From positions 1 to 34,878 of the forward strand of contig JAJZTY010000005.1 of assembly GCA_021847325.1 (NCBI GenBank): a stretch of DNA of 34,878 bases, given 5' to 3'. The position numbers were made by a program, and so were the translations under genes. Of the stretch, positions 2,364 to 19,849 are shown in pieces. The first letter of the stretch is position 1. Every line of letters begins with the position of its first letter. The stretch comes from Bacillota bacterium. Lineage in GTDB: Bacteria > Bacillota_I > Bacilli_A > Erysipelotrichales > Erysipelotrichaceae. The notes under the pieces were generated by a model. That model did no database searches and was not told where the DNA came from. It saw only the letters and a program-made list of their open reading frames with translations.

Positions 2364-4321
2364 TGTTCATCCTCTTGTGCTAACCATTGTTCAATAACAA
2401 GTTCTAATTCAACAAGTACTTGTTCAACACTGGTGTTATCTCTTTGTAATGCAGCTGCGGTAAAGTGACCGCCTCCACTCATTTTTTCCATTATAACATG
2501 AACATTAATATTCCCGTTCGAACGAGCAGAAATACCCACTGTTTTTTCACTAATTTTTGATACGACGAAAGATGCTTCTATATCTTTAATAACAAGTAGA
2601 CTATTTGCGACTTGAGAGATTAAAGCACGATCAAGAATTGTATCATCTTGCATAGACGCAACCACAATACCTTTCTTATATCTTCTTAAGCTTTGCATTA
2701 ATTTTGTTTTAAGTATGAATTCTTGATAATTATCTTTTAAGTAATTATCACACACACTCGGATCTGCTCCAAACTGTTTTAATAAGGCAGATACTTCAAA
2801 TGTACGACTACCGGTTCGAGTACGGAAACGATTCGTATCGATTAATATACCAGTTAACGCAAAATTAGACTCATTCTCCGTTAACTCAACACTATTTTGT
2901 TGATAAGGTATTAATTCTGTTACCATTTCTGTTGTACTTGATGCGGCTGTTTCCATATAAACTAAAATTGGATTGAAACTAAAGTCTTGATTTCTACGAT
3001 GATGATCAATAACTACAATCTTCTTAACTTTCTCAAGAATTTGAGGTAAGGATGATTGTGAAGCTAAATGATGATCTACCATAATTAACAACGTTTTATC
3101 ATTGATTAATGCATATGTTTCATGTTCTTTTATAAAATGATGATCTTTATCAAAACTATCTCTCTCTTTGGCATACGCCATAGATAGTTTATTCTCTAAT
3201 GCACCATGCATAATAATTGATACTGGAACATGATAAGAATGTATTATCTTACTAAGTACTAATGCAGACCCGAAACAATCAAAGTCCATATCTCTATGTC
3301 CAAGAATAATAACATTCCCAGCATTCACAATTAATTCTTTTAATGTTTGAGCAATCACTCGAGCACGTACTTTACTACGTTTCTCAACCGCTTCACTACT
3401 ACCACCCATATATACAACATCTTCACCATACGACTTAATCGCAACCTGATCACCACCACGACTTTGTGCAAGCGCAAGCGCTCCATTTACCATTTCCTCT
3501 AACTCAGGAAACTCTAATGAACCTCTCGCAAACGCCATAGACAGTGTTATCGCCACATCCAATTGGCTTGATGCTTCACGTATATTCTTTAATATTGAAA
3601 ATTGTTCGTCCATCATCTGCTTAAATAACAACTCATTCAATACTAACAACATTCGATTATTTCTTAAACGTTTGATAAATATTCCACGTTCATTTGCCCA
3701 ATTATAGACCGATTGACGAATCTTACTATCAATTAATGAAATTCTTTGTTCTTCTTCGTACTGAGTCGTTTCATCATAATTATCAAAATGAATAAGTCCT
3801 AAAACAATTTGTTTATCATCACTAGCCATCTTAGTAATGGTTAAATCAGTCACATCCTTAAAGAATAATGTCTGTCCATTTTCTTTACGTCGAATTTGAT
3901 AGATATGATCATTAATCGTAACTTGAACCATATCTGCTTCGTTATTAAATAATAACTTGGTTTCTGGTAACCAATTCATAATCTTTTGGCCTATGACATC
4001 ATACATTCGTTTATGTAATAACTCACTGATCCAAGTAATCTCATAATTGTGATCAATTGTTAATAAGCCTAATTCTCCAAAAATAAATGCTTCTTGTGAA
4101 TCTTTACCTAATATTTTAGATATAGTAAGAATTCTTTCGTTATGATATTCCTCTGAATATTCCATAAACACAATGAGTAATACGATATTCACGATCACAA
4201 AGAATCCATCGACAATAGAAAAAGGCAGTCTAAATAATGTGTGACTGGTAATTAAAGCGATAACTTCTATGATTAAAACTAACCATACAAGACGTTTTAC
4301 CTTTTTATATTGATTAAGCAT
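2360..4321 (-). CDS. gdpP: Cyclic-di-AMP phosphodiesterase GdpP
   Basis: Membrane-bound phosphodiesterase that hydrolyses the second messenger c-di-AMP, which controls potassium and osmolyte transport, cell-wall stress and beta-lactam tolerance in Firmicutes. The 653 residues match the family (about 650-660). Two membrane helices lie at about residues 10-55. A PAS-like domain (about 80-150) and a degenerate GGDEF domain (about 170-300, without a GGDEF signature) follow. The DHH domain carries the metal-binding elements GHRDMDFD (H342, D346, D348), VDHH (D416), IDHHRR (D439-H441) and ILIDTN (D495). The C-terminal DHHA1 domain has [10 protein letters not shown]. All catalytic positions appear intact. 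The gene sits between the yybS-like gene and rplI, with 2 bases to the former and a 4-base overlap with the latter. Confidence 0.95.
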
Positions 4322-4323
4322 AT

Positions 4324-5232
4324 TTATAGTGTGATTAATTCAATTCTCTTACGAATATCCGTAAAACAATCAAGAAGTCCTAAACCAATAAAACCATAGA
4401 TTAGAACCGTTGGCAAGAGTATAAGTGCTAACATCGCAAAAGTTGGAAGATATTTACGATTCGTTCTTTTACCATAGATTGCGATTAGGATAAATGCATC
4501 TCCAATAATGATAAGAGCAGATACAAATAATATTAATGAAGCTACGATTTGAAGATTCTGATCACCAGATTGATATAAGATCGTGCTACTAAATAAACCC
4601 AGTAACGCAATAAACCCTAACCACTTTGGTAATTGAATATGTTGTAGAGGTTTCATTTTTCGAACTACTATATTTAATCGTTTTAAAAGTGTAACAGATA
4701 AAAGATGTGTCATGAGTGCTTGTAAGAATCCTGTTAACAATAAAATAATTGGAGTGATCGCAAGTACTTGTGCCATAAAATTATCAGGTAGAACTAAACC
4801 CTCTATTCCTTTTAAGGATTCAATCAGTGCTTCTGTATCTTTATATAAATCATATCCAATAAATGCGGCTAATACATACGTCTCAACAAACAGACTAATC
4901 GCATTAATAAGTGTTGAAACAAATAATAACCAATCATTACTTTTGTTTGAATTAACACCATAACCATACGCTAATCCAACCAATAATCCTCCACCAATAT
5001 AAAATAGAGTAATGATATTACCTAGCATGATGGATAGAAACACAGCCCCAAAACTCACAACTAATCCACTTTTAAATCCATAACGTATTGTATAAATAAG
5101 AATGGGTAAAGGTATAAAGATAATAAAATAGGTTTGTAGGATTCCTGCAAACTGTAAATTTAAAAATAGGAATAATCCTATGATGGCTAACATCATGGAT
5201 CCTTCAGTGATTGTTCGTACTTGTTTTTTCAT
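4324..5232 (-). CDS. YybS-like DUF2232 integral membrane protein
   Basis: A 302-residue, very hydrophobic protein with about eight predicted membrane segments, starting MKKQVRTITEGSMMLAI. The order rpsR / this gene / gdpP equals the rpsR-yybS-yybT neighbourhood of Bacillus-type genomes, and the N-terminus fits the DUF2232 (YybS) family, whose function is not settled. Its Shine-Dalgarno GGAGG (5246-5250, minus strand) lies 13 bases upstream of the ATG, inside the 3' arm of a hairpin, so translation may depend on that structure opening. It ends 2 bases before the gdpP start, which suggests the two membrane proteins are made together. A role connected to c-di-AMP signalling would be inference from position only. 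Confidence 0.85.
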   Translation of the reverse strand: MKKQVRTITEGSMMLAIIGLFLFLNLQFAGILQTYFIIFIPLPILIYTIRYGFKSGLVVSFGAVFLSIMLGNIITLFYIGGGLLVGLAYGYGVNSNKSNDWLLFVSTLINAISLFVETYVLAAFIGYDLYKDTEALIESLKGIEGLVLPDNFMAQVLAITPIILLLTGFLQALMTHLLSVTLLKRLNIVVRKMKPLQHIQLPKWLGFIALLGLFSSTILYQSGDQNLQIVASLILFVSALIIIGDAFILIAIYGKRTNRKYLPTFAMLALILLPTVLIYGFIGLGLLDCFTDIRKRIELITL

Positions 5233-5243
5233 ATATAAAGATA

Positions 5244-5268
5244 AACCTCCACCGACAGTGTGGAGGTT
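5244..5268 (-). promoter_or_regulatory. Intercistronic hairpin between rpsR and the yybS-like gene that encloses a Shine-Dalgarno
   Basis: Read on the minus strand, AACCTCCAC and GTGGAGGTT form a perfect 9-bp stem with a 7-base loop, directly after the rpsR stop. The downstream bases are TATCTTTATAT, a poor T-tract, so it is a weak terminator at best. The GGAGG of the next gene is buried in the 3' arm. The hairpin may separate ribosomal-protein expression from the yybS-gdpP part by attenuation, mRNA processing or SD occlusion. Confidence 0.6.
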
Positions 5269-5275
5269 ATAGTTT

Positions 5276-5506
5276 TTAGTCGGCTACGTAAGGTAGTAAA
5301 GCCATTTGACGTGCACGTTTAACTGCAGTTGCTAATAAACGTTGGTACTTAGCTGCTGTGCCAGTTACACGTCTTGGTATAATCTTGCCATTAGAAGAAA
5401 TAAAACGTTTTAATAATTCTAAATCTTTATAGTCAATGACAGTGATATTGTTTTTTGTGAAGTAACATACTTTTTTACGTGCTACTCTTTGTTTTTTGAA
5501 TGCCAT
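5276..5506 (-). CDS. rpsR: 30S ribosomal protein bS18
   Basis: Small-subunit protein bS18, which binds 16S rRNA as a heterodimer with bS6. The 76 residues carry the family signature [19 protein letters not shown] followed by [12 protein letters not shown] and the basic C-terminal [11 protein letters not shown]. An N-terminal Cys (C14, KKVCYFT) is present in the region that in some bS18 proteins holds a zinc site, but a full four-Cys set is absent. The start is supported by AAAGGAG six bases upstream. It follows ssb by 15 bases. Confidence 0.97.
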
Positions 5507-5521
5507 GAGACGCTCCTTTCG

Positions 5522-5968
5522 CTAAAATGGAAGATCATCGCTAGAAATATCTAGTAATGGTCCTGTGTTGAAATCATCATCAGAAACATCGTTATCCGCA
5601 AAGTAACCTGTGGACTTCGGTGCTTGTTGATATGTTTGTTGTGTTTCGCTAGAATTGCGAGATCCGATAAGTTGGACATTATCTGCAGTCACATCCGTCG
5701 TATAGACTTTCTTGCCTGTAGTTTTATCATCATAACTTCCCGTTGTAATATGACCTTCAACACCCACAGTATTTCCTTTTTTAGCATATTGATTTAAGAA
5801 GTCAGCTGTCTGACGCCAAGCAATACAACTAATAAATGAAGTTTCTTCGTTCTGTCCATATTTACGATTTACTGCAACAGTAAAGCGTGCATAGGATATT
5901 CCGGATTGGGTCTTAAAGTATTGAGGATCTCTTGTAAGATTGCCTACCAATACAACACGGTTAATCAT
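5522..5968 (-). CDS. ssb: Single-stranded DNA-binding protein
   Basis: Binds and protects single-stranded DNA in replication and repair and recruits partners through its acidic tail. The OB-fold covers about residues 1-105 with the start MINRVVLVGNLTRDPQ and the ISCIAWRQTADFLNQYAKKG core. A Gln/Ser-rich linker follows, and the protein ends in DDLPF, the conserved interaction tip. The 148-residue length is normal. It lies between rpsF and rpsR as in most Firmicutes. AAAGGGG lies seven bases upstream of the ATG. Confidence 0.97.
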   Translation of the reverse strand: MINRVVLVGNLTRDPQYFKTQSGISYARFTVAVNRKYGQNEETSFISCIAWRQTADFLNQYAKKGNTVGVEGHITTGSYDDKTTGKKVYTTDVTADNVQLIGSRNSSETQQTYQQAPKSTGYFADNDVSDDDFNTGPLLDISSDDLPF

Positions 5969-7306: not shown

Positions 7307-10303
<2,997 letters not shown>

Positions 10304-10313
10304 TTTTTGCTTA

Positions 10314-11636
10314 TTAGTTAGATTCTGCTTCTTTTGATTGCTCAAGTTTAACGTTTTCAGCATCCATTTTCTTAATAAATGGATAATAACCAACAATTGA
10401 CCAAACAATAATAACTGCTTGAAGTAAAGCGGCTCTCCATCCACCAGTAATGAGACCACTGATGATAGGTGGAGTTGTCCAAGGAACTGTAATACCACCA
10501 TAATAAGGAACCAAACCAAATTGAATTGCTAAGTAACTACCAACCGCTGCTACAACAGGTACGTAGATAAATGGCAACAATAAGTATGGATTCAATACAA
10601 TTGGTGTACCAAATAAAATTGGTTCATTGATATTAAAGAATGAAGATGGTAACGCTAATTTCCCTAAAGTCTTAAATTGTTTTGATTTAGCCAATAACAT
10701 CGCAATTACGATGCCGAATGTAATACCTGAACCCGTAATTCTCCAAATAGCATCGACTTGAGTTGTATAAACTACTGCGCCGTTAGCTGCAGTCAATGGT
10801 AAACCAGCATCTAAGATAGCTTGATTCGCTAACATATTAGCAGTAACAATACCACTTGTAATACCACCAACTAATGATGCTCCATGAACACCAAACCACC
10901 ACAACAATGAAACCATAGTTGAGAAGACAATAACGCCAGGCAATGAATCTGTAAATCCAGATAATGGTGTCTGAATCATTTTATAGATCCAGTCAACTGC
11001 AGTAGTCCCCATAACATTCACGAAGAATGCATTAACTAAGAATGCTGCTGTAAATAATACTGCACCAGGTATTAATGCTGCAAATGAGTTCGCAATATTT
11101 GGTGGAACACCTTCAGGCATTTTTACTGTGTAACCTTTTGATAAGAAGAAATCATAAACAGCTCCAACGATTACCCCAATAATTAACGCTGAAACCATAC
11201 CTTTAGAACCGGTATAAGACATTGGTAAAATGTTTGACGCAACTAAACTAACAGCTTCTTGACTTGTTGCAGCAACCCCACTTACTGTTTGTGTATGAGG
11301 AATTAGAGTAAAAAATACAACTTCTGCTAAGATACCTGCTGCTAACCCATCTTTACCTGAGTGTTTTGCATATTGAAACGCAACCGCAAACACCGCAACG
11401 AATGATAAAATGTTGAAGGATGCACGATATACTTGCATCATGTGTTGTTGTAATCCGATCGTAATGAACAATTGTTTAATTGGTTCATACGGGAAGTTTG
11501 CTAATAGTAAGAAAATCGCTCCAATAACTGTTAAAGAAATCGTTGCAATCATTCCATCTTTAATTGCAGTAATTGGCTTTGAGGTTACGAAATTCATAAC
11601 CGCAGGAAATACTTTATCATTAAAATATTCTTTCAT
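10314..11636 (-). CDS. PTS EIIC, lactose/cellobiose family
   Basis: Membrane permease subunit of a cellobiose/beta-glucoside-type phosphotransferase system. The 440 residues have about ten membrane segments. The start MKEYFNDKVFPAVMNFVTSKPITAIKDG and the segments GVHGASLVGGI, SSFFNINEPILFGTPIVLNP and YGGITVPWTTPPIISG are the family landmarks; the NEP(I/L)xFG loop contributes to sugar binding. The start has GGAGAGGAG shortly upstream. It lies 25 bases after the EIIB gene. The exact sugar cannot be decided from sequence; the two GH1 phospho-beta-glucosidases suggest cellobiose or aryl/oligo-beta-glucosides. Confidence 0.93.
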   Translation of the reverse strand: MKEYFNDKVFPAVMNFVTSKPITAIKDGMIATISLTVIGAIFLLLANFPYEPIKQLFITIGLQQHMMQVYRASFNILSFVAVFAVAFQYAKHSGKDGLAAGILAEVVFFTLIPHTQTVSGVAATSQEAVSLVASNILPMSYTGSKGMVSALIIGVIVGAVYDFFLSKGYTVKMPEGVPPNIANSFAALIPGAVLFTAAFLVNAFFVNVMGTTAVDWIYKMIQTPLSGFTDSLPGVIVFSTMVSLLWWFGVHGASLVGGITSGIVTANMLANQAILDAGLPLTAANGAVVYTTQVDAIWRITGSGITFGIVIAMLLAKSKQFKTLGKLALPSSFFNINEPILFGTPIVLNPYLLLPFIYVPVVAAVGSYLAIQFGLVPYYGGITVPWTTPPIISGLITGGWRAALLQAVIIVWSIVGYYPFIKKMDAENVKLEQSKEAESN

Positions 11637-11661
11637 TGAGTTCTCCTCTCCTTTAAATAAG

Positions 11662-11991
11662 TTAATCTTCTACACTTCCATCCCTTTTTTGAAATAATTC
11701 TAAAGCATAATCCAAAACAACTGCTCCATTTACCATGCCATAGTCTTGCATTCGAATTATGGCAACTGGAATTTTCAGTGGATCCGCAAATCGCTTTGCA
11801 TCTGACATTAGGTAAATAAGTTGTGGACCTAATAACACCACATCTGCTGACGGAACTTCTCTTTCAAGTGTATTGGCCGAGTACGCCTTGATAAAACAAG
11901 AAATTCCACGAGCTTGAGCCGACTGATTCATTTTATGAACCAACAATGAAGTAGACATACCAGCTTGACAGAATAATTTGATGATGACCAT
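11662..11991 (-). CDS. PTS EIIB, lactose/cellobiose family
   Basis: Cytoplasmic phosphocarrier that passes phosphate from EIIA to the sugar entering through EIIC. The 109-residue protein starts MVIIKLFCQAGMSTSLLV; C8 followed by the xAGMSTS phosphate-binding loop is the active site. The VVLLGPQLIYL strand and the C-terminal ...PVAIIRMQDYGMVNG are also typical of the Lac/Cel IIB fold. GGAGGAAGT stands directly before the ATG. It is encoded between EIIA and EIIC as in lic operons of Bacillus. Confidence 0.94.
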   Translation of the reverse strand: MVIIKLFCQAGMSTSLLVHKMNQSAQARGISCFIKAYSANTLEREVPSADVVLLGPQLIYLMSDAKRFADPLKIPVAIIRMQDYGMVNGAVVLDYALELFQKRDGSVED

Positions 11992-12013
11992 ACTTCCTCC
12001 ATTTCACATTGAT

Positions 12014-12328
12014 TTAACGAAACGTTTTATAAATGTGTAAAATCTCTTCGGCAACTTCTGACATCACAATCGCCATCCCAAGATGATCTTGAGCATGAAC
12101 CATAATGATATTCATATCAACTGGTTCACCACAAATTTCTGCTTGACTTAATGTCGTCTGAATTAAGTGAGCTTGATTCAGATCTTCATGAGCTAAAGCG
12201 ATAAGTTCAACCGCTTCATCCATCTCACCTGCTCTTGCCTTCTTCATCGCTATCATTGATTTTGACTTAGAATTACCCGCATGTAAGATGATTTGAAAGG
12301 CTAATTGATATCGAGTATCATCCATCAT
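12014..12328 (-). CDS. PTS EIIA, lactose/cellobiose family
   Basis: First phosphocarrier of the PTS; it takes phosphate from HPr. The open frame extends seven codons further upstream (to 12349), but that ATG has no Shine-Dalgarno, whereas the internal ATG at 12328 has AGAAAGG nine bases upstream. With this start the protein is 104 residues, the usual family length, and the active-site His of VHAQDHLGM falls at residue 78, the same number as in the well-studied lactose EIIA. The FQIILHAGNSKS motif near the N-terminus is also conserved. It is the first gene of the operon EIIA-EIIB-EIIC-GH1-GH1-HAD. Confidence 0.93.
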   Translation of the reverse strand: MMDDTRYQLAFQIILHAGNSKSKSMIAMKKARAGEMDEAVELIALAHEDLNQAHLIQTTLSQAEICGEPVDMNIIMVHAQDHLGMAIVMSEVAEEILHIYKTFR

Positions 12329-12390
12329 TTCACCTAGCCTTTCTAACATTAATCTGAATTAAGACTTTGTTGGTCATTAACCTATTTCCT

Positions 12391-12418
12391 ATTCTATCTA
12401 ATATAGATTTTATTTCAA
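12391..12418 (-). promoter_or_regulatory. Promoter of the PTS operon
   Basis: Minus strand: -35 TTGAAA (12413-12418), 16-base spacer, -10 TAGAAT (12391-12396). The predicted start near 12384 gives a leader of about 55 bases. The sub-optimal boxes fit an activator-dependent promoter. Confidence 0.6.
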
Positions 12419-12430
12419 TTTGTACTTTTT

Positions 12431-12444
12431 CCATAAGGTTATGG
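12431..12444. promoter_or_regulatory. Palindromic site CCATAA-GG-TTATGG, candidate LicR-type activator site
   Basis: A perfect inverted repeat with 6-base arms and a 2-base centre lies between the divergent promoters. Its centre is about 20 bases upstream of the -35 box of the PTS operon, a usual place for an activator, and about 35 bases upstream of the regulator's own -35. Binding by the adjacent PRD regulator is inferred from position. Confidence 0.5.
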
Positions 12445-12470
12445 TATTTTTGCAAATCAAAACGACTTGT

Positions 12471-12499
12471 TTGTTTAAAAATAAACTCTATACTATAAT
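12471..12499 (+). promoter_or_regulatory. Promoter of the LicR-type regulator gene
   Basis: Plus strand: -35 TTGTTT (12471-12476), 17-base spacer, -10 TATAAT (12494-12499). Predicted start about 12506, some 40 bases before the ATG. Confidence 0.7.
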
Positions 12500-12545
12500 A
12501 AGTCGGATAAATATTTTAATATGCATAATATAACGAAAGAAGTTT

Positions 12546-14447
12546 ATGAAAGAAACTAGGATTAAGAAAATATTTGATCTTCTAAGTGAACATCACACCT
12601 ATATTACAGGCGAGAAATTAGCTCAGCTTCTTTCAGTTAGCACAAAAACAATTCGTAATGAACTTAAAACACTAGACACTATTTTTAGTAAGAATGGTGG
12701 TAGAGTGGATTCTAAATCAGGCTTAGGTTATCATTTTGAAGTAACCGACATGGAAATGTTTCGTACATTTATCGCCAATAAATGGCATGAGTACGCTTTT
12801 GAAGAAGATACCTTAGTTTATAAATCCAATCGAGTTATTTTCTTATTAAAAATTATGTTATTTGAGAAAGATTATATTAAGGCCATTGATCTCTGTGATC
12901 GCCTTCAAATCTCGAAATCACAACTTAGTACCGATTTACAATTACTCCGACAAAAAATAGAACCCTTCCAACTCCATTTGGATGTAAGACCCCATCATGG
13001 AATGAAGATTATTGGTAAAGAATTAAATCTTAGATTATGCATCGCAAATGTTGTATACAATGAAAAACAACTTCTTGATGAAGAAGAGTTTGAAACTCAA
13101 TTTATTTTGAGTGAAATTCGATCTAACATCTTACGAGTCTTTAATCATTATCACTATGAAACCAGTGAATTAGTTTTCCATAATCTTGTGATTCATTTAT
13201 TTGTCGCATTAGAAAGAGTTAAGATTGGTGAATCCATTGTGATGGAATCGCAACTCCTAGAAACATTAAAACAAGATAATGAGTACCAAATAGCTCATGA
13301 TATTATTCATGAAATAGAAAAATTATTTGGTTACTCATTCCCAGAAGATGAAAAAGGTTATGTTTCTATGCATTTATCGGGGAAACGTGTCTTTGGCCAA
13401 TCTGAACAAGAATCCAATGTCGTAAGTAGTGAAGTTGATGAACTTGTAATGAATATGTTGGATCGAGTACGAGTTGTGATGGATATCGATTTAACCAAAG
13501 ACTTAGATTTACGTATTGCTTTAGGCTTGCATTGTGTTCCTTTAGTAAAACGTATTAGTTATAACCTTATGATGAAGAATCCCTTATTGGATGACATCAA
13601 GAAACATAAACAAGCTTATTTAACGGCTGAGATTGCGTCTGAAGTCATCGAACGTCGCTATTTGATTAAACTCAGTGAAGATGAAATTGCTTACTTTGCG
13701 CTTCATTTCTATGTCGCATTAGAGCGTCATAAAGTTACGATTAATCGAAAAAAAGTATTGCTGGTTTGTTCTACCGGTCATGGGACCGCAAAATTATTAC
13801 AGTTTAGATTCAAACAAGAATTTGATCCATTCTTAGAGAATATTGTGACGAAAGACGCATTATCACTCAATCAAATCGATCTTAATCATTTCGATTTAAT
13901 TGTTTCAACAGTACCCTTATCCGTTAAAACAATCACACCAATTATCTATGTATCAACTTTATTAAGTGATCATGATTTACAAACCATTCGTCATCGTTTT
14001 AATCAGAATGATATGTCAATTGCAGAATACTTTGATCGTAAATTATTCTATAAAGATATTGTGGCAAATACTAAGGAAGATGTTATCTTCTTTATGTCAA
14101 ATAAGATTAGTGATTTATACAACTTTAGACCAGGTTTCTATGAATCCATATTGCGACGTGAAGCATCCGCATCTACAGAGTTTGGGAATTTGATTGCGAT
14201 CCCTCATCCAGACCAAGCCTTTAGTCATACAACTTTTGTATCGGTTGCGGTATTAAAAAAACCAATCTTATGGAATGAAAGAATGGTTCAATTAGTCTTT
14301 ATGTTGTCCTATGGTGATAATGAGAACGATAATTTGGATGTCTTCTTTGCGAAGAGTGCACAGTTCTTAACCAGTGCTAAAGATATTCAAGCTGCGATTG
14401 ATGCCAGTGATTACGATGATTTTATTCGTTTAATCGATAAGACTTAA
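12546..14447 (+). CDS. LicR-type PTS-regulated transcriptional activator (HTH-PRD-PRD-EIIB-EIIA)
   Basis: A 633-residue DNA-binding regulator whose activity is set by phosphorylation from the PTS. Order of domains: winged HTH at about 1-60 (LAQLLSVSTKTIRNEL), a second helical HTH-like region to about 160, PRD1 at about 190-290 (H213, H217, H276), PRD2 at about 300-395 (H329, H387), an EIIB-like domain with the active Cys C408 (LLVCSTGHGTAKLL), and a fructose-type EIIA domain with H554 (IAIPHPDQ). This is the full architecture of LicR of Bacillus, the activator of lichenan/cellobiose PTS genes, and not of the shorter antiterminators. It is divergent from the PTS operon, which is its likely target. 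It ends tail to tail with a lipoprotein gene, the two stops overlapping at TTAA. Confidence 0.93.
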   Translation: MKETRIKKIFDLLSEHHTYITGEKLAQLLSVSTKTIRNELKTLDTIFSKNGGRVDSKSGLGYHFEVTDMEMFRTFIANKWHEYAFEEDTLVYKSNRVIFLLKIMLFEKDYIKAIDLCDRLQISKSQLSTDLQLLRQKIEPFQLHLDVRPHHGMKIIGKELNLRLCIANVVYNEKQLLDEEEFETQFILSEIRSNILRVFNHYHYETSELVFHNLVIHLFVALERVKIGESIVMESQLLETLKQDNEYQIAHDIIHEIEKLFGYSFPEDEKGYVSMHLSGKRVFGQSEQESNVVSSEVDELVMNMLDRVRVVMDIDLTKDLDLRIALGLHCVPLVKRISYNLMMKNPLLDDIKKHKQAYLTAEIASEVIERRYLIKLSEDEIAYFALHFYVALERHKVTINRKKVLLVCSTGHGTAKLLQFRFKQEFDPFLENIVTKDALSLNQIDLNHFDLIVSTVPLSVKTITPIIYVSTLLSDHDLQTIRHRFNQNDMSIAEYFDRKLFYKDIVANTKEDVIFFMSNKISDLYNFRPGFYESILRREASASTEFGNLIAIPHPDQAFSHTTFVSVAVLKKPILWNERMVQLVFMLSYGDNENDNLDVFFAKSAQFLTSAKDIQAAIDASDYDDFIRLIDKT

Positions 14448-15586: not shown

Positions 15587-15740
15587 GCTTAGATTGGTGC
15601 TAACGCATAATAGGGAATTCGCAATAAACGAAGCTGTCCCAGCAACTGTAGATCTGGACAAGAGGAAGTATCCACTGTAAAACGGGAAGGATCCTTGAGG
15701 ATGAACGATCAGCCAGTAGACCTGCCAATGATAAGCGTTG
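15587..15740 (+). ncRNA. Cobalamin (B12) riboswitch aptamer
   Basis: The conserved landmarks occur in the correct order: TTGGTGC, TAATAGGGAATTC, GAAGCTGTCCCAGCAACTGT, CCACTG, CGGGAAGGAT and the B12 box AGCCAGTAGACCTGCC (15711-15726). The closing stem pairs GCTTA-G-ATTGG (15587-15597) with CCAAT-GA-TAAGC (15725-15736). Adenosylcobalamin or another cobalamin is the known ligand of this class, and binding normally shuts expression off. The genes behind it (transcobalamin-like protein, ECF S component, adenosyltransferase) agree with B12 regulation. Confidence 0.95.
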
Positions 15741-15812
15741 TTTTATCTTCTGGGAACAAGATAAAAAGACATTAGCCTGTCTTTTTTGTACACATCCAGA
15801 TGTGTATTTTTT
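15741..15812 (+). terminator. Riboswitch expression platform with tandem terminators
   Basis: Three hairpins follow the aptamer. The first, 15741-15766, has a 9-bp stem (TTTTATCTT / AAGATAAAA). Terminator 1, 15763-15786, has a 9-bp stem AAAAAGACA / TGTCTTTTT with loop TTAGCC and further T. Terminator 2, 15789-15806, has TACACAT / ATGTGTA with loop CCAG and six T (15807-15812). The first stem and terminator 1 share bases 15763-15766, so they exclude each other in part. Terminator 2 is independent. The first gene's GGAGG (15821-15825) comes after both. Confidence 0.8.
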
Positions 15813-15833: not shown

Positions 15834-16277
15834 ATGAAGAAAAATTTAGTTCGTATTGGTATAGCAGTTGTCTTATTAGTTGGTTCATTATTTGTATATA
15901 ATCAATTCTTTAGACAAGGAAATGAAGGTTCAAAAGAAGTACAAATCATCTTAACGGTTGATCAAGATGGTCAAGATGTGGTTATTCTAGATGTGACACA
16001 ACGCACAGATGATGAAATGTTAGGCACATTCTTGGAAACTGTACTAAAAGATGAAAATCTAGAATATAACTTTTCTGGTAGTGTATCTGATCCATATGGA
16101 CGATATATTGTCGGAATTGGGGAATATGAGACGAAAGATAGTGCTGTAGGTCCTTGGTGGTTATTTAATTCCACAACCAATAAAGATTGTGTGAGTGCTG
16201 GTTTCTGTCCTGGAATCGATATTACTCCACTTTACGATAAAGACGTATTTACATTTGAATTTACAGCGAGTTACTAA
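15834..16277 (+). CDS. Membrane-anchored transcobalamin-like (DUF4430) protein
   Basis: A 147-residue protein with a short cytoplasmic end, one membrane helix at about residues 6-24 and an extracellular domain. No lipobox Cys is present, so the anchor is a helix rather than a lipid. The outer part has the DUF4430 pattern: a beta-rich start (KEVQIILTVDQDGQDVV), SDPYGRYIVGIGEYE, then the hallmark VGPWWLFNSTTNKDC and SAGFCPGIDITPLYDKD with a final beta strand. The domain is related to the beta-grasp C-terminal domain of animal transcobalamin and intrinsic factor. Two Cys (NKDCVSAGFC) could form a disulfide. As first gene behind the B12 riboswitch and 3 bases before an ECF S component, it is probably a cobalamin-binding surface partner of the importer; that function is inferred. 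Confidence 0.85.
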   Translation: MKKNLVRIGIAVVLLVGSLFVYNQFFRQGNEGSKEVQIILTVDQDGQDVVILDVTQRTDDEMLGTFLETVLKDENLEYNFSGSVSDPYGRYIVGIGEYETKDSAVGPWWLFNSTTNKDCVSAGFCPGIDITPLYDKDVFTFEFTASY

Positions 16278-16280
16278 TGT

Positions 16281-16784
16281 ATGTTTAATGTCCGTAAACT
16301 CGTTTTATTAGCCTTACTTGCGGCAGGTGCGCTTGCCTTACAAGTATCTCTTTCTTTCTTACCGAATGTGGAGTTAGTCACATTATGGTTTTTAATCATT
16401 GGATTAAGTTTAAGTTTTAAGGAGAGCGTCATTGTGGTATTTGTGTTTACTCTTCTTGAAGCGTTAGTCTGGGGATTTGGAGATTGGGTATTAGGTTATT
16501 TATGGATATGGACAGTTTGGATTATCATGATTCGTTGTTTTAAACCAATCTTAAAAGACAAAACACATTTATGGGCGCTGCTGGGTGCGTTCTATGGTTT
16601 TGTCTTTGGTTTTCTATTTGCGGCTCAACATGCTCTCCTATATGGCCTTAATATGGGGATAGTTTATTGGATTCGGGGCATAAGTTTTGACATTATCCAC
16701 GCTTTCTCGAATTATAGTCTTATACTAATTTTATTTACACCGATATTAAAGGTGTTTAATAATTTAATAAGAAAGTGGGGTTAA
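16281..16784 (+). CDS. ECF transporter S component, predicted cobalamin-specific
   Basis: A 167-residue integral membrane protein with about six helices, starting MFNVRKLVLLALLAAGALALQ. The pattern (SFLPNVELVTLWFLI, an acidic helix LLEALVWGFGDWVLGYLWIW, FGFLFAAQHALLYG, WIRGISFDIIHAFSN) is that of the small substrate-binding S subunits of energy-coupling factor importers. The alanine-rich first helix fits binding to the shared T subunit. No EcfA/A'/T genes are in the window, so a shared energising module encoded elsewhere is expected (group II ECF). The riboswitch upstream and the adenosyltransferase one base downstream argue for cobalamin or a precursor as substrate. Its Shine-Dalgarno is weak, so translational coupling to the upstream gene is likely. 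Confidence 0.85.
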   Translation: MFNVRKLVLLALLAAGALALQVSLSFLPNVELVTLWFLIIGLSLSFKESVIVVFVFTLLEALVWGFGDWVLGYLWIWTVWIIMIRCFKPILKDKTHLWALLGAFYGFVFGFLFAAQHALLYGLNMGIVYWIRGISFDIIHAFSNYSLILILFTPILKVFNNLIRKWG

Positions 16785-16785
16785 T

Positions 16786-17250
16786 ATGCCAGTCACAACT
16801 AAAACAGGAGATCGTGGTTTTACAAGTATTAAAGATGGACGTGTTTCTAAGGATGAACCCGTTATTGATGCGCTTGGAAATTTAGATGAGTGCAGTAGTT
16901 TAATCATCCATATGCAAGCTCAATTGGAGCTTGATAAAGAACCTTGGGAAAAGATTGTCAAGGAATTGTATGATATATCCGCTTATGTCGCAGGCTATAA
17001 GAAAACGATTGATTTAGAGGATAGTATTAAACGTTTAGAGACGTTTATTGAAGCCAATCAATCTCGTTATTCTAACTTTATTTATCCATTTAACCAAAAG
17101 AAAGCTGCTTTCTTACACTATGTTAGAACGGTTGTAAGAAGAGCTGAAAGAAGCTTAGTTAAGGTGAACGAAACACAGCTTATTGATACAGCTGTTTTAC
17201 AATATATTAATCGATTATCTGATTATTGTTTTGTGAATGAATTAGTTTGA
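16786..17250 (+). CDS. Cob(I)alamin adenosyltransferase, PduO type (divergent, short)
   Basis: Transfers the 5'-deoxyadenosyl group of ATP to cob(I)alamin to make adenosylcobalamin. Family marks are the N-terminal TKTGDRGFTS (residues 5-14), the DGRVSKDEPVIDALGNLDECSS region, VRTVVRRAER (R118, R119, E121, R122) and INRLSDYCF (142-146). At 154 residues it is about 20-30 shorter than most family members, and the usual PGG before the catalytic helix reads PFN here, so it is a divergent member; the key Arg and Asp residues remain. It starts one base after the S-component stop with GTGGGG as Shine-Dalgarno. The following class II ribonucleotide reductase needs exactly this product. Confidence 0.88.
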   Translation: MPVTTKTGDRGFTSIKDGRVSKDEPVIDALGNLDECSSLIIHMQAQLELDKEPWEKIVKELYDISAYVAGYKKTIDLEDSIKRLETFIEANQSRYSNFIYPFNQKKAAFLHYVRTVVRRAERSLVKVNETQLIDTAVLQYINRLSDYCFVNELV

Positions 17251-17298
17251 TGAAATATTGAATGTAAACAACTTTCAGAAATTGAACTTAATTTTGTA

Positions 17299-17307
17299 TG
17301 TTAGAAT
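17299..17307 (+). promoter_or_regulatory. Possible extended -10 promoter in front of nrdJ
   Basis: TG-T-TAGAAT (17299-17307) fits an extended -10 element 25 bases before the nrdJ ATG, but no good -35 box stands 16-18 bases upstream. No terminator was found between the adenosyltransferase and nrdJ, so read-through from the riboswitch operon is also possible. Confidence 0.3.
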
Positions 17308-17332
17308 TGAAATTACAAAAAGGGGTGTTTTT

Positions 17333-19849
17333 ATGAGCTATACACAATCAACCATAGAAAAATTGAACGCGGATATCCGACATAACTTTCATCATATCTT
17401 TCCAATAGAGAATGAATTTAAATTAACTCATGCAGGTGTGAGTCGTTTAGTTATGTTAGATCGATATTCCCAAAAGGATCGTAGTTTAAAAACACTGGGT
17501 GTAAATGATATTGTCGTAACGATTGTTAAGGAAGATCCAAAATTCCCATCACGTGGGATTGGTTTAGTTCTTGATGTCGATTATGAACATGAGTATGTCA
17601 CGCTTAAACTTGAAGAAGAGTTTAGAGCATCATTAGAGAACGAAGTTGAAGCAAGTACTGGAATTATTACACGTCCATTTAAACAAGTGGATAAGCCATT
17701 AGAGATATTTTATGAACAAATAGCGAAACGTGTTGGTAAATCATTAGCTTCGACTGAATTATCAGAAGATTTTAGAGATCATTATGGTAAAGTGTTTGCG
17801 GAAGAATTAGCTGAAATGAATGTCATTCCTGCAGGTCGTGTTTTATATGGTGCAGGATCTCAAACTCAAGTAACGTATTTTAACTGTTTCGTTATGCCAT
17901 TTATTCATGACTCTCGTGGTGGTATTTCCAATCATCGTAAAGAAGTTATGGAGATTATGTCACGTGGGGGTGGTGTTGGGACGAATGGTTCTACACTACG
18001 TCCTAAATCAGCGCCTGCTAAAGGGGTTGGTGGTAAGTCTAGTGGTGCAGTGAGTTGGCTAAATGATATTGCGAATCTAACGCATCTTGTGGAACAAGGC
18101 GGTTCACGTCGTGGTGCACAGATGATAATGTTAGCGGATTGGCATCCAGATATTATTGAATTTATTATCTCGAAGATGCAAAATCCTAAAGTATTGAAGT
18201 GGTTAATCGAAAATTCAAAAGATGAACAAATCAAATATGAAGCAGAGAAGAAATTAAAATTCGTACCTCTCAGTCGTATTGATAAAGAAATATATGAATC
18301 ATTAGCAGACAATAAGAACGTACCAGTTCATGTATCTGATTATGCTCGTGAACAATTGGCAAATGGTGGAACCTTAAGTGTATCAAATCCTGAATTCTTA
18401 TCAGGTGCTAATATATCCGTTACATTGACTAAAGATTTCATGGATGCGGTTAAGAGTGATTCTAACTTTGATTTACGTTTCCCTGATCTTGAACATTATA
18501 ATCCTGAACAGAAGGCTACTTATGATGAACATTGGCATGAAGTAGGTGATGTTCGGGAATGGGAAGCTCTAGGTTATCCTGTTAAAACATATCGCACTAT
18601 TCGTGCACGTGATTTATGGGATTTAATTAGCTTCTGTGCAACCTATTCTGCAGAACCTGGTATCTTCTTTATCGATAATGCGAATGAAATGACCAATGCG
18701 AAAGCTTATGGACAAAAAGTTGTCGCAACAAACCCTTGTGGTGAACAACCATTAGCGCCATATTCAGTATGTAATCTAGCTGCGATAAATCTTGCGAACT
18801 TTGTGGATCGTAAGACAGGTGAAGTTTTATATGAAAAACTCAAAACGACCGTTGCGGTTACCGTTCGTATGCAAGATGATGTTATTGATGATACACCTTA
18901 CTTCCTAGAACCTAATAAGAAACAAGCTCTTGGCGAACGTCGTATTGGTTTAGGGGTTATGGGTTTACATGATTTACTTATCTGGGCTCGTAAACGTTAT
19001 GGTTCTCCTGAATCGATTGAAACAATTGATTTAGTGTTCAAGACGATTGCGGAAACTGCTTATAGTACTTCCGTAGAACTTGCTAAGGAAAAGGGTTCAT
19101 TCCCATTCTTAGAAGATCGTGAAGCATTTATTAATTCTGGATATATGAAGACATTAGATGAATCTATACGTCAAGATATTCTAAAATATGGTATTCGTAA
19201 TTCTCACTTATTAACAATCGCTCCTACTGGTTCTACTGGAACCATGGTTGGGGTTTCTACAGGTCTAGAGCCTTACTTCTCCTTCTCTTACTTTAGAAGT
19301 GGAAGACTCGGTAAGTTTATCGAAGTTAATGCGAAGATTGTGGAAGATTGGTTGGAACTCAATCCTGGGTATACTAAACAAACACTTCCTGATTACTTCG
19401 TAAGTGCTATGGAATTAACCCCAGAGGAACATGCGGATACACAATGTGCCATTCAACGTTGGATTGATTCTTCCATATCTAAAACAGTCAATGCGCCTCG
19501 TGGATTCTCTGTTCGACAAGTCCAAAAGATTTATGAACGTCTCTATGATGGTGGCGCTAAAGGTGGTACCGTTTATGTGGATGGTTCACGTGATTCTCAA
19601 GTTCTATCGTTATCCAATGATGATGAAAGCAACTGGGCTCAAATGGACATCGTTCATGACTTTGGTATTAACGTAAAAGAAAAACAAGTAGAAGAGAAGA
19701 AAACGGATTTAAGAGCTGACCGTCAAGATCGTAATATCGGTGTTGAGGTTGGGGATATCTGTCCGATCTGTTTAGAAGGTACTGTTGAAGAAATCGGTGG
19801 ATGTAATACCTGTACCAACTGTAATGCACAGTTGAAATGTGGTCTATAA
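17333..19849 (+). CDS. nrdJ: Class II (adenosylcobalamin-dependent) ribonucleotide reductase
   Basis: Reduces ribonucleotides to deoxyribonucleotides with a thiyl radical generated from adenosylcobalamin; works with or without oxygen. The ATG at 17333 is chosen because AAAGGGG lies seven bases upstream; a TTG 75 bases earlier has no Shine-Dalgarno. Of 838 residues, the first redox Cys is C185 (YFNCFV). The radical/substrate site N467-C469-E471 lies in NPCGEQPL, and the second redox Cys is C480 (VCNLAAINL). RRIGLGVMGLHDLL and APTGSTGTMVGVS are further family motifs. The C-terminus holds paired Cys (CPIC, CNTCTNC, KCGL) that form the usual re-reducing/zinc-like tail. There is no adjacent NrdEF or NrdDG. 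The gene is the natural consumer of the cofactor made by the upstream genes. Confidence 0.95.
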   Translation: MSYTQSTIEKLNADIRHNFHHIFPIENEFKLTHAGVSRLVMLDRYSQKDRSLKTLGVNDIVVTIVKEDPKFPSRGIGLVLDVDYEHEYVTLKLEEEFRASLENEVEASTGIITRPFKQVDKPLEIFYEQIAKRVGKSLASTELSEDFRDHYGKVFAEELAEMNVIPAGRVLYGAGSQTQVTYFNCFVMPFIHDSRGGISNHRKEVMEIMSRGGGVGTNGSTLRPKSAPAKGVGGKSSGAVSWLNDIANLTHLVEQGGSRRGAQMIMLADWHPDIIEFIISKMQNPKVLKWLIENSKDEQIKYEAEKKLKFVPLSRIDKEIYESLADNKNVPVHVSDYAREQLANGGTLSVSNPEFLSGANISVTLTKDFMDAVKSDSNFDLRFPDLEHYNPEQKATYDEHWHEVGDVREWEALGYPVKTYRTIRARDLWDLISFCATYSAEPGIFFIDNANEMTNAKAYGQKVVATNPCGEQPLAPYSVCNLAAINLANFVDRKTGEVLYEKLKTTVAVTVRMQDDVIDDTPYFLEPNKKQALGERRIGLGVMGLHDLLIWARKRYGSPESIETIDLVFKTIAETAYSTSVELAKEKGSFPFLEDREAFINSGYMKTLDESIRQDILKYGIRNSHLLTIAPTGSTGTMVGVSTGLEPYFSFSYFRSGRLGKFIEVNAKIVEDWLELNPGYTKQTLPDYFVSAMELTPEEHADTQCAIQRWIDSSISKTVNAPRGFSVRQVQKIYERLYDGGAKGGTVYVDGSRDSQVLSLSNDDESNWAQMDIVHDFGINVKEKQVEEKKTDLRADRQDRNIGVEVGDICPICLEGTVEEIGGCNTCTNCNAQLKCGL

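Follow-up and report, generated by a model that had tools for sequence, protein, structure and literature searches.

Transcobalamin clasps its cobalamin ligand between two domains, an alpha-alpha toroid and a beta-domain, and its C-terminal domain was assigned by Burroughs et al. in 2007 to the SLBB beta-grasp superfamily, which is widespread in low-GC Gram-positive bacteria (PMC1796856). The same study described alpha-alpha toroid fusions, neighbouring second SLBB paralogues and CbiO/CbiQ operons, predicted B12 scavenging for the bacterial extracellular transcobalamin-like domains in energy-coupling factor (ECF) operons and proposed that the animal B12 carriers were acquired from Gram-positive bacteria; riboswitch control has 0 occurrences in it. 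On the side of transport, the structure 6FNP is that of ECF-CbrT from Lactobacillus delbrueckii, which transports both cobalamin and cobinamide, and the corresponding eLife paper of 2018 reports an nrdJ-cbrS-cbrT-pduO cluster in this organism and cites a comparative-genomics prediction of CbrT from 2009 (PMC5997447). In L. rhamnosus, LGG_02295 (DUF4430) lies beside rtpR, and an "additional lipoprotein component of putative cobalamin ECF transporter" is listed (PMC9963975), from which cbrS would appear to encode a DUF4430 protein. Here we analyse a locus within a 34,878-nt stretch of DNA (the window) from a Bacillota bacterium (Erysipelotrichaceae; GCA_021847325.1, contig JAJZTY010000005.1, positions 1-34,878; the genome is 81% complete), in which a cobalamin riboswitch precedes a gene for a DUF4430-like protein and a gene for an ECF S component.

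The unit lies on the forward strand (+) and starts with a full-length cobalamin riboswitch aptamer (RF00174; 15579..15743; cmscan 76.5 bits, E 2.4e-17, model positions 1-189). The first ATG (15834) follows 90 bases downstream, which makes the DUF4430-like gene (15834..16277) the first riboswitch gene; it is separated by exactly 3 bases from the gene of the 167-residue S component (16281..16784), so that the order and spacing of the two open reading frames given in the initial annotation hold. That annotation had covered the gene pair only: two further genes belong to the unit downstream, one for a PduO-type cob(I)alamin adenosyltransferase (16786..17250; PF01923 E 1e-37; TIGR00636 above cut-off) and one for NrdJ, the adenosylcobalamin-dependent class II ribonucleotide reductase (17333..19849; NF005991 1382 bits, above cut-off; PF02867 1.7e-107). 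Taken as a whole, it is well supported as a real and coherent B12 uptake operon. The L. delbrueckii cluster likewise combines a CbrT-type S component, PduO, NrdJ and an extra component gene beside cbrT, and a shared ECF module is expected in both organisms; the order differs, being nrdJ-cbrS-cbrT-pduO in L. delbrueckii and riboswitch-DUF4430-S-PduO-NrdJ in the window.

The 147-residue product of the first gene, which we describe as CbrS-like, begins with an N-terminal hydrophobic helix and is predicted to be extracytoplasmic; it has no lipobox, and carries a helix anchor where the listed lactobacillar component is a lipoprotein. Scanned singly, the protein matched neither Pfam DUF4430 (PF14478) nor any NCBIfam family, and single-protein searches of Pfam, NCBIfam and the PDB returned noise only (ferritin, CARD, PrlF); the family assignment therefore depends on profiles and on structure. 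In three homologues PF14478 was found below threshold (E about 0.09, 13.7 bits against a gathering score of 23.8), and we call the protein DUF4430-like because this score is not reached by its single sequence, which also sets it apart from the clade described in 2007, as it lies below Pfam detection when taken alone. The profiles were clearer: an alignment of the protein with 14 relatives (A1) matched 3u7z, a DUF4430 protein of Ruminococcus gnavus, with an E-value of 8.8e-8, the next PDB match being human intrinsic factor at a non-significant E of 0.39, and a comparison of the family, by hhalign, with 16 further DUF4430 proteins from the phylum gave 99.1% (E 8e-19, 128 columns). Thus, the DUF4430 label of the initial annotation stands at the level of profiles and falls at that of single-sequence Pfam.

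The transcobalamin beta-grasp fold had been named beforehand as the point on which the initial proposal would stand or fall, and it was recovered. The AlphaFold2 model (predicted local distance difference test, pLDDT, 87.4) has a helix at the N-terminus (3-29) followed by a beta-grasp domain, and Foldseek ranks 1-16 were held solely by 3u7z, intrinsic factor and transcobalamin, including 5np4, the isolated human transcobalamin beta-domain with cyanocobalamin, before E-values fell to 0.15. The human beta-domains (5no0, 5np4, 2pmv, 2bb6) were matched with a probability of 1.00 and E-values of 8e-5 to 4e-4. TM-scores were moderate (0.43-0.58 by query length, with a root mean square deviation of 3-6 Å), and hence support the fold and not the details of a binding site; a transcobalamin-type beta-grasp fold of the outer domain is accordingly supported as a prediction of the model. 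Members of the clade are expected to have, behind the helix, a beta-hairpin insert whose hydrophobic residue stacks against the base of cobalamin; in this region the model has only E78-81 ahead of strand E91-95. Invariant within the family alignment are W109, S113, C119 and C125, of which the two cysteines form a CX5C motif in most members and lie in a loop after strand 108-112 that is missing from the aligned part of 3u7z; a C119-C125 disulphide is the simplest guess for their role.

The second gene was described by the initial annotation as a small S component, and here the analysis bears it out and specifies the B12 type. The protein has six predicted helices and, scanned singly, no Pfam or NCBIfam match; a profile of 17 S-component sequences (A2), run against the whole PDB, matched a single chain, CbrT (6fnp_A), with an E-value of 6.3e-15 over 163 positions. 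The model (pLDDT 91.9) again has six helices, and its Foldseek matches were ECF S components (4huq_S, RibU, ThiT) with probabilities of 0.98-1.00, at weak E-values (0.1-0.3). S components dock to EcfT through an AxxxA motif in helix 1, and residues 11-15 of this protein read ALLAA. One EcfT (CbiQ family, E 2.8e-45), on which the presence of the ECF module rests, is encoded in the organism's own 81%-complete genome, where no BtuC-type permease scored above cut-off. Homology and gene context support the S component as part of a B12 ECF importer that would bind and transport cobalamin.

In order to place the pair in a wider context, 60 related genomes and 295 genomes of the phylum were sampled. 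The complete order of riboswitch, DUF4430-like gene, S gene, PduO and NrdJ is also found in seven further family genomes (G001, G002, G003, G005, G006, G012, G014), whilst in other family genomes the S gene comes first and the DUF4430 gene second, sometimes behind another PF01923 adenosyltransferase; in three such loci a divergent member of PF01923 lies upstream of the S gene (L030:5231-5749, L031:3494-3937, L034:4795-5289). Across the phylum, 30 genomes had both Pfam DUF4430 and S-profile matches, and in 28 of them the two genes share a strand and are no more than 4 kb apart. The recurrence of this adjacency across the phylum, together with that of the unit order in the family, argues that the pairing is not due to chance. 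Elsewhere the pair is found next to MetH (L131, L135, L186), CobA/BtuR (L136) and PF01923 adenosyltransferases (L030, L031, L034, L133, L134). A DUF4430-like gene is furthermore present in all 10 of the 60 relatives that carry NrdJ and in 6 of the other 50 (Fisher p 1e-7, or p 0.004 with one genome per genus; the sampled genomes being related, both values are indicative only), and the 10 include two genomes, G027 and G032, in which NrdJ is encoded on a different contig from the DUF4430-like gene.

A census of cobalamin riboswitches in the 60 relatives, with downstream units assigned by hand count, gave 34 aptamers (33 above the family cut-off), and the same pair was found behind B12 riboswitches elsewhere, for which the initial annotation had proposed a search: 28 are followed by a unit that includes a DUF4430 gene, four precede the anaerobic ribonucleotide reductase gene nrdD, one (G046:C26) heads an S gene alone and one (G019) an EcfT-EcfA-S set with a DUF4430 gene further along in the same direction. 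At L130, L176, L187, L188 and L192 each DUF4430 gene has a dedicated ECF set (EcfT, EcfA and S) downstream, with a cobalamin riboswitch ahead of all except L130. The census suggests that, in this order, cobalamin riboswitches mainly control DUF4430 units.

The sister family adds a protein with the probable fold of the other half of transcobalamin. Here the order is riboswitch, secreted toroid-like protein, DUF4430 and S, with a Prenyltrans match of 1.6e-7 for the toroid protein of L132; a toroid profile (A5) found such proteins in 16 of the 60 relatives, all of them from the sister family, and within the window's own family only G013 has a toroid-related gene in the riboswitch unit (profile A4, 1e-15). 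Secreted toroid genes directly upstream of DUF4430 and CbrT-type S genes, mostly led by a riboswitch, were seen at L132:5566-6741, L131:3623-5203, L175, L179-L182, L184 and L191, and it is possible that these separate genes represent a split transcobalamin with its alpha and beta parts encoded apart. Loci of an Acholeplasma type (L119-L129) combine a lipoprotein of ~400 residues (DUF4430, then ~280 residues) with a second, anchored DUF4430 gene and an S gene, and a cobalamin riboswitch lies upstream in all six of those scanned (L119, L120, L121, L123, L124, L125). The ~280-residue C-terminal half aligns by hhalign at 91% to the toroid proteins of L131 and L132, found no profile support in the PDB (best 1ks8, E 0.07) and none from Pfam, and is on sequence grounds probably a toroid. 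Membership of the full transcobalamin family was considered and rejected: PF01122 scored above cut-off in 0 of the 295 genomes, and two loci with weak matches (L139, L140) hold ordinary unrelated genes. Since the toroid is the other half of transcobalamin and is coupled to DUF4430 in these relatives, the B12 reading is strengthened for the family.

The gene order, the fold and homology of the parts, the riboswitch, the recurrence of the pair and its co-occurrence with NrdJ are shown here. The reading that fits them best, to which we assign a probability of roughly 0.66, is that corrinoid would be captured on the outside of the membrane by the beta-domain and handed over to the S component. At low intracellular levels of adenosylcobalamin, the riboswitch would leave the unit on, and the N-terminal helix would anchor the 147-residue protein at the external membrane surface and leave its DUF4430 domain exposed. 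This domain could then capture or concentrate scarce corrinoid by means of the surface equivalent to that with which transcobalamin grips one face of cobalamin, and, on contact with the CbrT-like S component, pass it on for import with the shared EcfA/A'/T module; PduO would adenosylate the imported corrinoid and NrdJ would use it for the synthesis of DNA precursors.

Several points weigh against this reading. Identity to human transcobalamin and intrinsic factor is only 12-15%, and W109, S113, C119 and C125 are not known cobalamin ligands. In contrast to the human carriers, the window protein is membrane-anchored and has no alpha-domain in the protein or the operon: with the toroid profile, neither the window's genome nor its genus yielded such a protein, so that of the transcobalamin sandwich just the beta part is present. 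The literature searched yielded no binding data for any bacterial DUF4430 protein and no published functional test of a bacterial transcobalamin-like domain. NrdJ, a B12-dependent enzyme, sits inside the riboswitch unit. Moreover, CbrS was absent from the purified ECF-CbrT that was shown to bind cobalamin at 9 nM and, in proteoliposomes, to transport it (PMC5997447). As the importer works in vitro without CbrS, a capture partner is not obligatory, and any role of the outer protein is likely to lie in improving affinity, rate or selectivity at low B12; together with the prediction of 2007 (PMC1796856), this weakens the idea of a surface partner as a distinctive or needed mechanism. A more specific version of capture and hand-off, in which the S component replaces the alpha toroid and the beta-domain is the outer lid of the importer, both sandwiching the corrinoid, appears to us unlikely, if still worth stating.

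The nanomolar affinity of CbrT alone also speaks for a different role, in which the DUF4430 protein would act as an accessory of the ECF importer, structural or catalytic in nature, that gates or stabilises the S component from outside and need not itself bind ligand. ECF transporters with extra extracytoplasmic subunits are known, and extra proteins of the CbiN/NikN type act in this manner in cobalt and nickel ECF systems. The near-constant adjacency of DUF4430 and S genes and the membrane anchor of the protein would suit such a role; against this, the predicted fold is shared specifically with a domain known to grip cobalamin, and the coupling of DUF4430 to alpha-alpha toroids in related units is not explained by pure gating; we consider an accessory function rather improbable. 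A further alternative is corrinoid selection or piracy, in which the outer domain would take corrinoid from carrier proteins or filter analogues instead of simply concentrating free B12. A precedent exists in BtuG of Bacteroides, for which piracy of B12 from intrinsic factor was shown and the affinity measured (PMC6143338), and the family includes gut-type relatives (Longicatena, Faecalicoccus, Holdemania). The closest relatives of the window are, on the other hand, metagenome-assembled genomes of unspecified habitat, and piracy needs binding just as capture and hand-off do; we hold it to be very unlikely.

Most unlikely in our assessment is that the domain binds another ligand, such as a metal, a nucleotide or a polysaccharide, with an incidental linkage to B12 genes. 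It is true that 3u7z was deposited as a putative metal-binding protein, that the subfamily has two invariant cysteines and that the wider beta-grasp superfamily binds diverse ligands (PMC1796856), but an incidental linkage sits poorly with DUF4430 genes behind 28 of 34 cobalamin riboswitches, with their linkage to several kinds of B12 gene and with their co-occurrence with NrdJ.

The position of NrdJ also bears on how the unit is regulated. Cobalamin riboswitches mostly repress, and the leader carries two U-tailed, terminator-like hairpins, with which control in the OFF direction would be consistent. The first, a putative part of the expression platform, is AAAAAGACA-UUAGCC-UGUCUUUUU (15763..15786, +), with a folding energy of -14.6 kcal/mol and a z of -2.2 in a single-strand fold of 15738-15800, although it was not picked up by the consensus terminator scan, which demands 3 G-C pairs; the second, ACACAU-CCAG-AUGUGU-AUUUUUU (15790..15812, +; fold z -3.5), lies upstream of the ribosome-binding site and may act likewise. 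With NrdJ in the unit, an OFF switch would lower nrdJ too, unless this gene is also transcribed from a promoter of its own. Spacing between the first three genes is tight, whereas 82 bases (17251..17332, +; from coordinates and alignment) precede nrdJ, and a gap of ~80-100 bases is kept at this point in relatives, where the earlier genes abut or overlap: a separate nrdJ promoter within the gap is possible from this spacing, and a sigma-70 consensus scan upstream of nrdJ found no promoter. The four genomes with a riboswitch ahead of nrdD (G000, G006, G027, G032) all carry NrdJ. G000 is the window's own genome, in which the second riboswitch (G000:C46:2651-2823; locus L036) is followed by NrdD (2896-5142) and a radical-SAM activase (5117-5626), and which has no PF02867 ribonucleotide reductase besides NrdJ in its 81%-complete assembly. 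As the nrdD product is the class III, B12-independent enzyme, this arrangement suggests that B12 may determine whether the class II or the class III ribonucleotide reductase is used. Elsewhere in the window (7307-14447), genes for a glycosyl hydrolase of family 1 and a phosphotransferase system EIIC lie near a PRD/EIIA transcription regulator; this is an ordinary sugar uptake locus and unrelated.

The idea of B12 capture by such domains is not new, having been predicted in 2007, and the window operon is a further candidate instance of it. A conceptual likeness also exists to BtuG-BtuB of Bacteroides, in which B12 is caught at the cell surface by one protein and delivered to a transporter in the membrane (PMC6143338), albeit in an outer-membrane TonB system and with no homology claimed. 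What is new here is the riboswitch census, the homology of the partner to CbrT, the co-occurrence with NrdJ and the separate toroid gene, none of which we found stated in a paper, within a partial coverage of the literature. The census would aid the annotation of many unnamed genes, and the operon offers a small, self-contained test case: the outer protein has 147 residues, a relative of the S component has been characterised, and NrdJ makes a growth phenotype likely. Should the beta-domain prove to be a lid, the ECF importer would possess an extracytoplasmic receptor dedicated to it, and the relatives would form a series from toroid, beta-domain and S component to beta-domain and S component. 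If binding and hand-off are true, ECF importers would gain a receptor-assisted mode.
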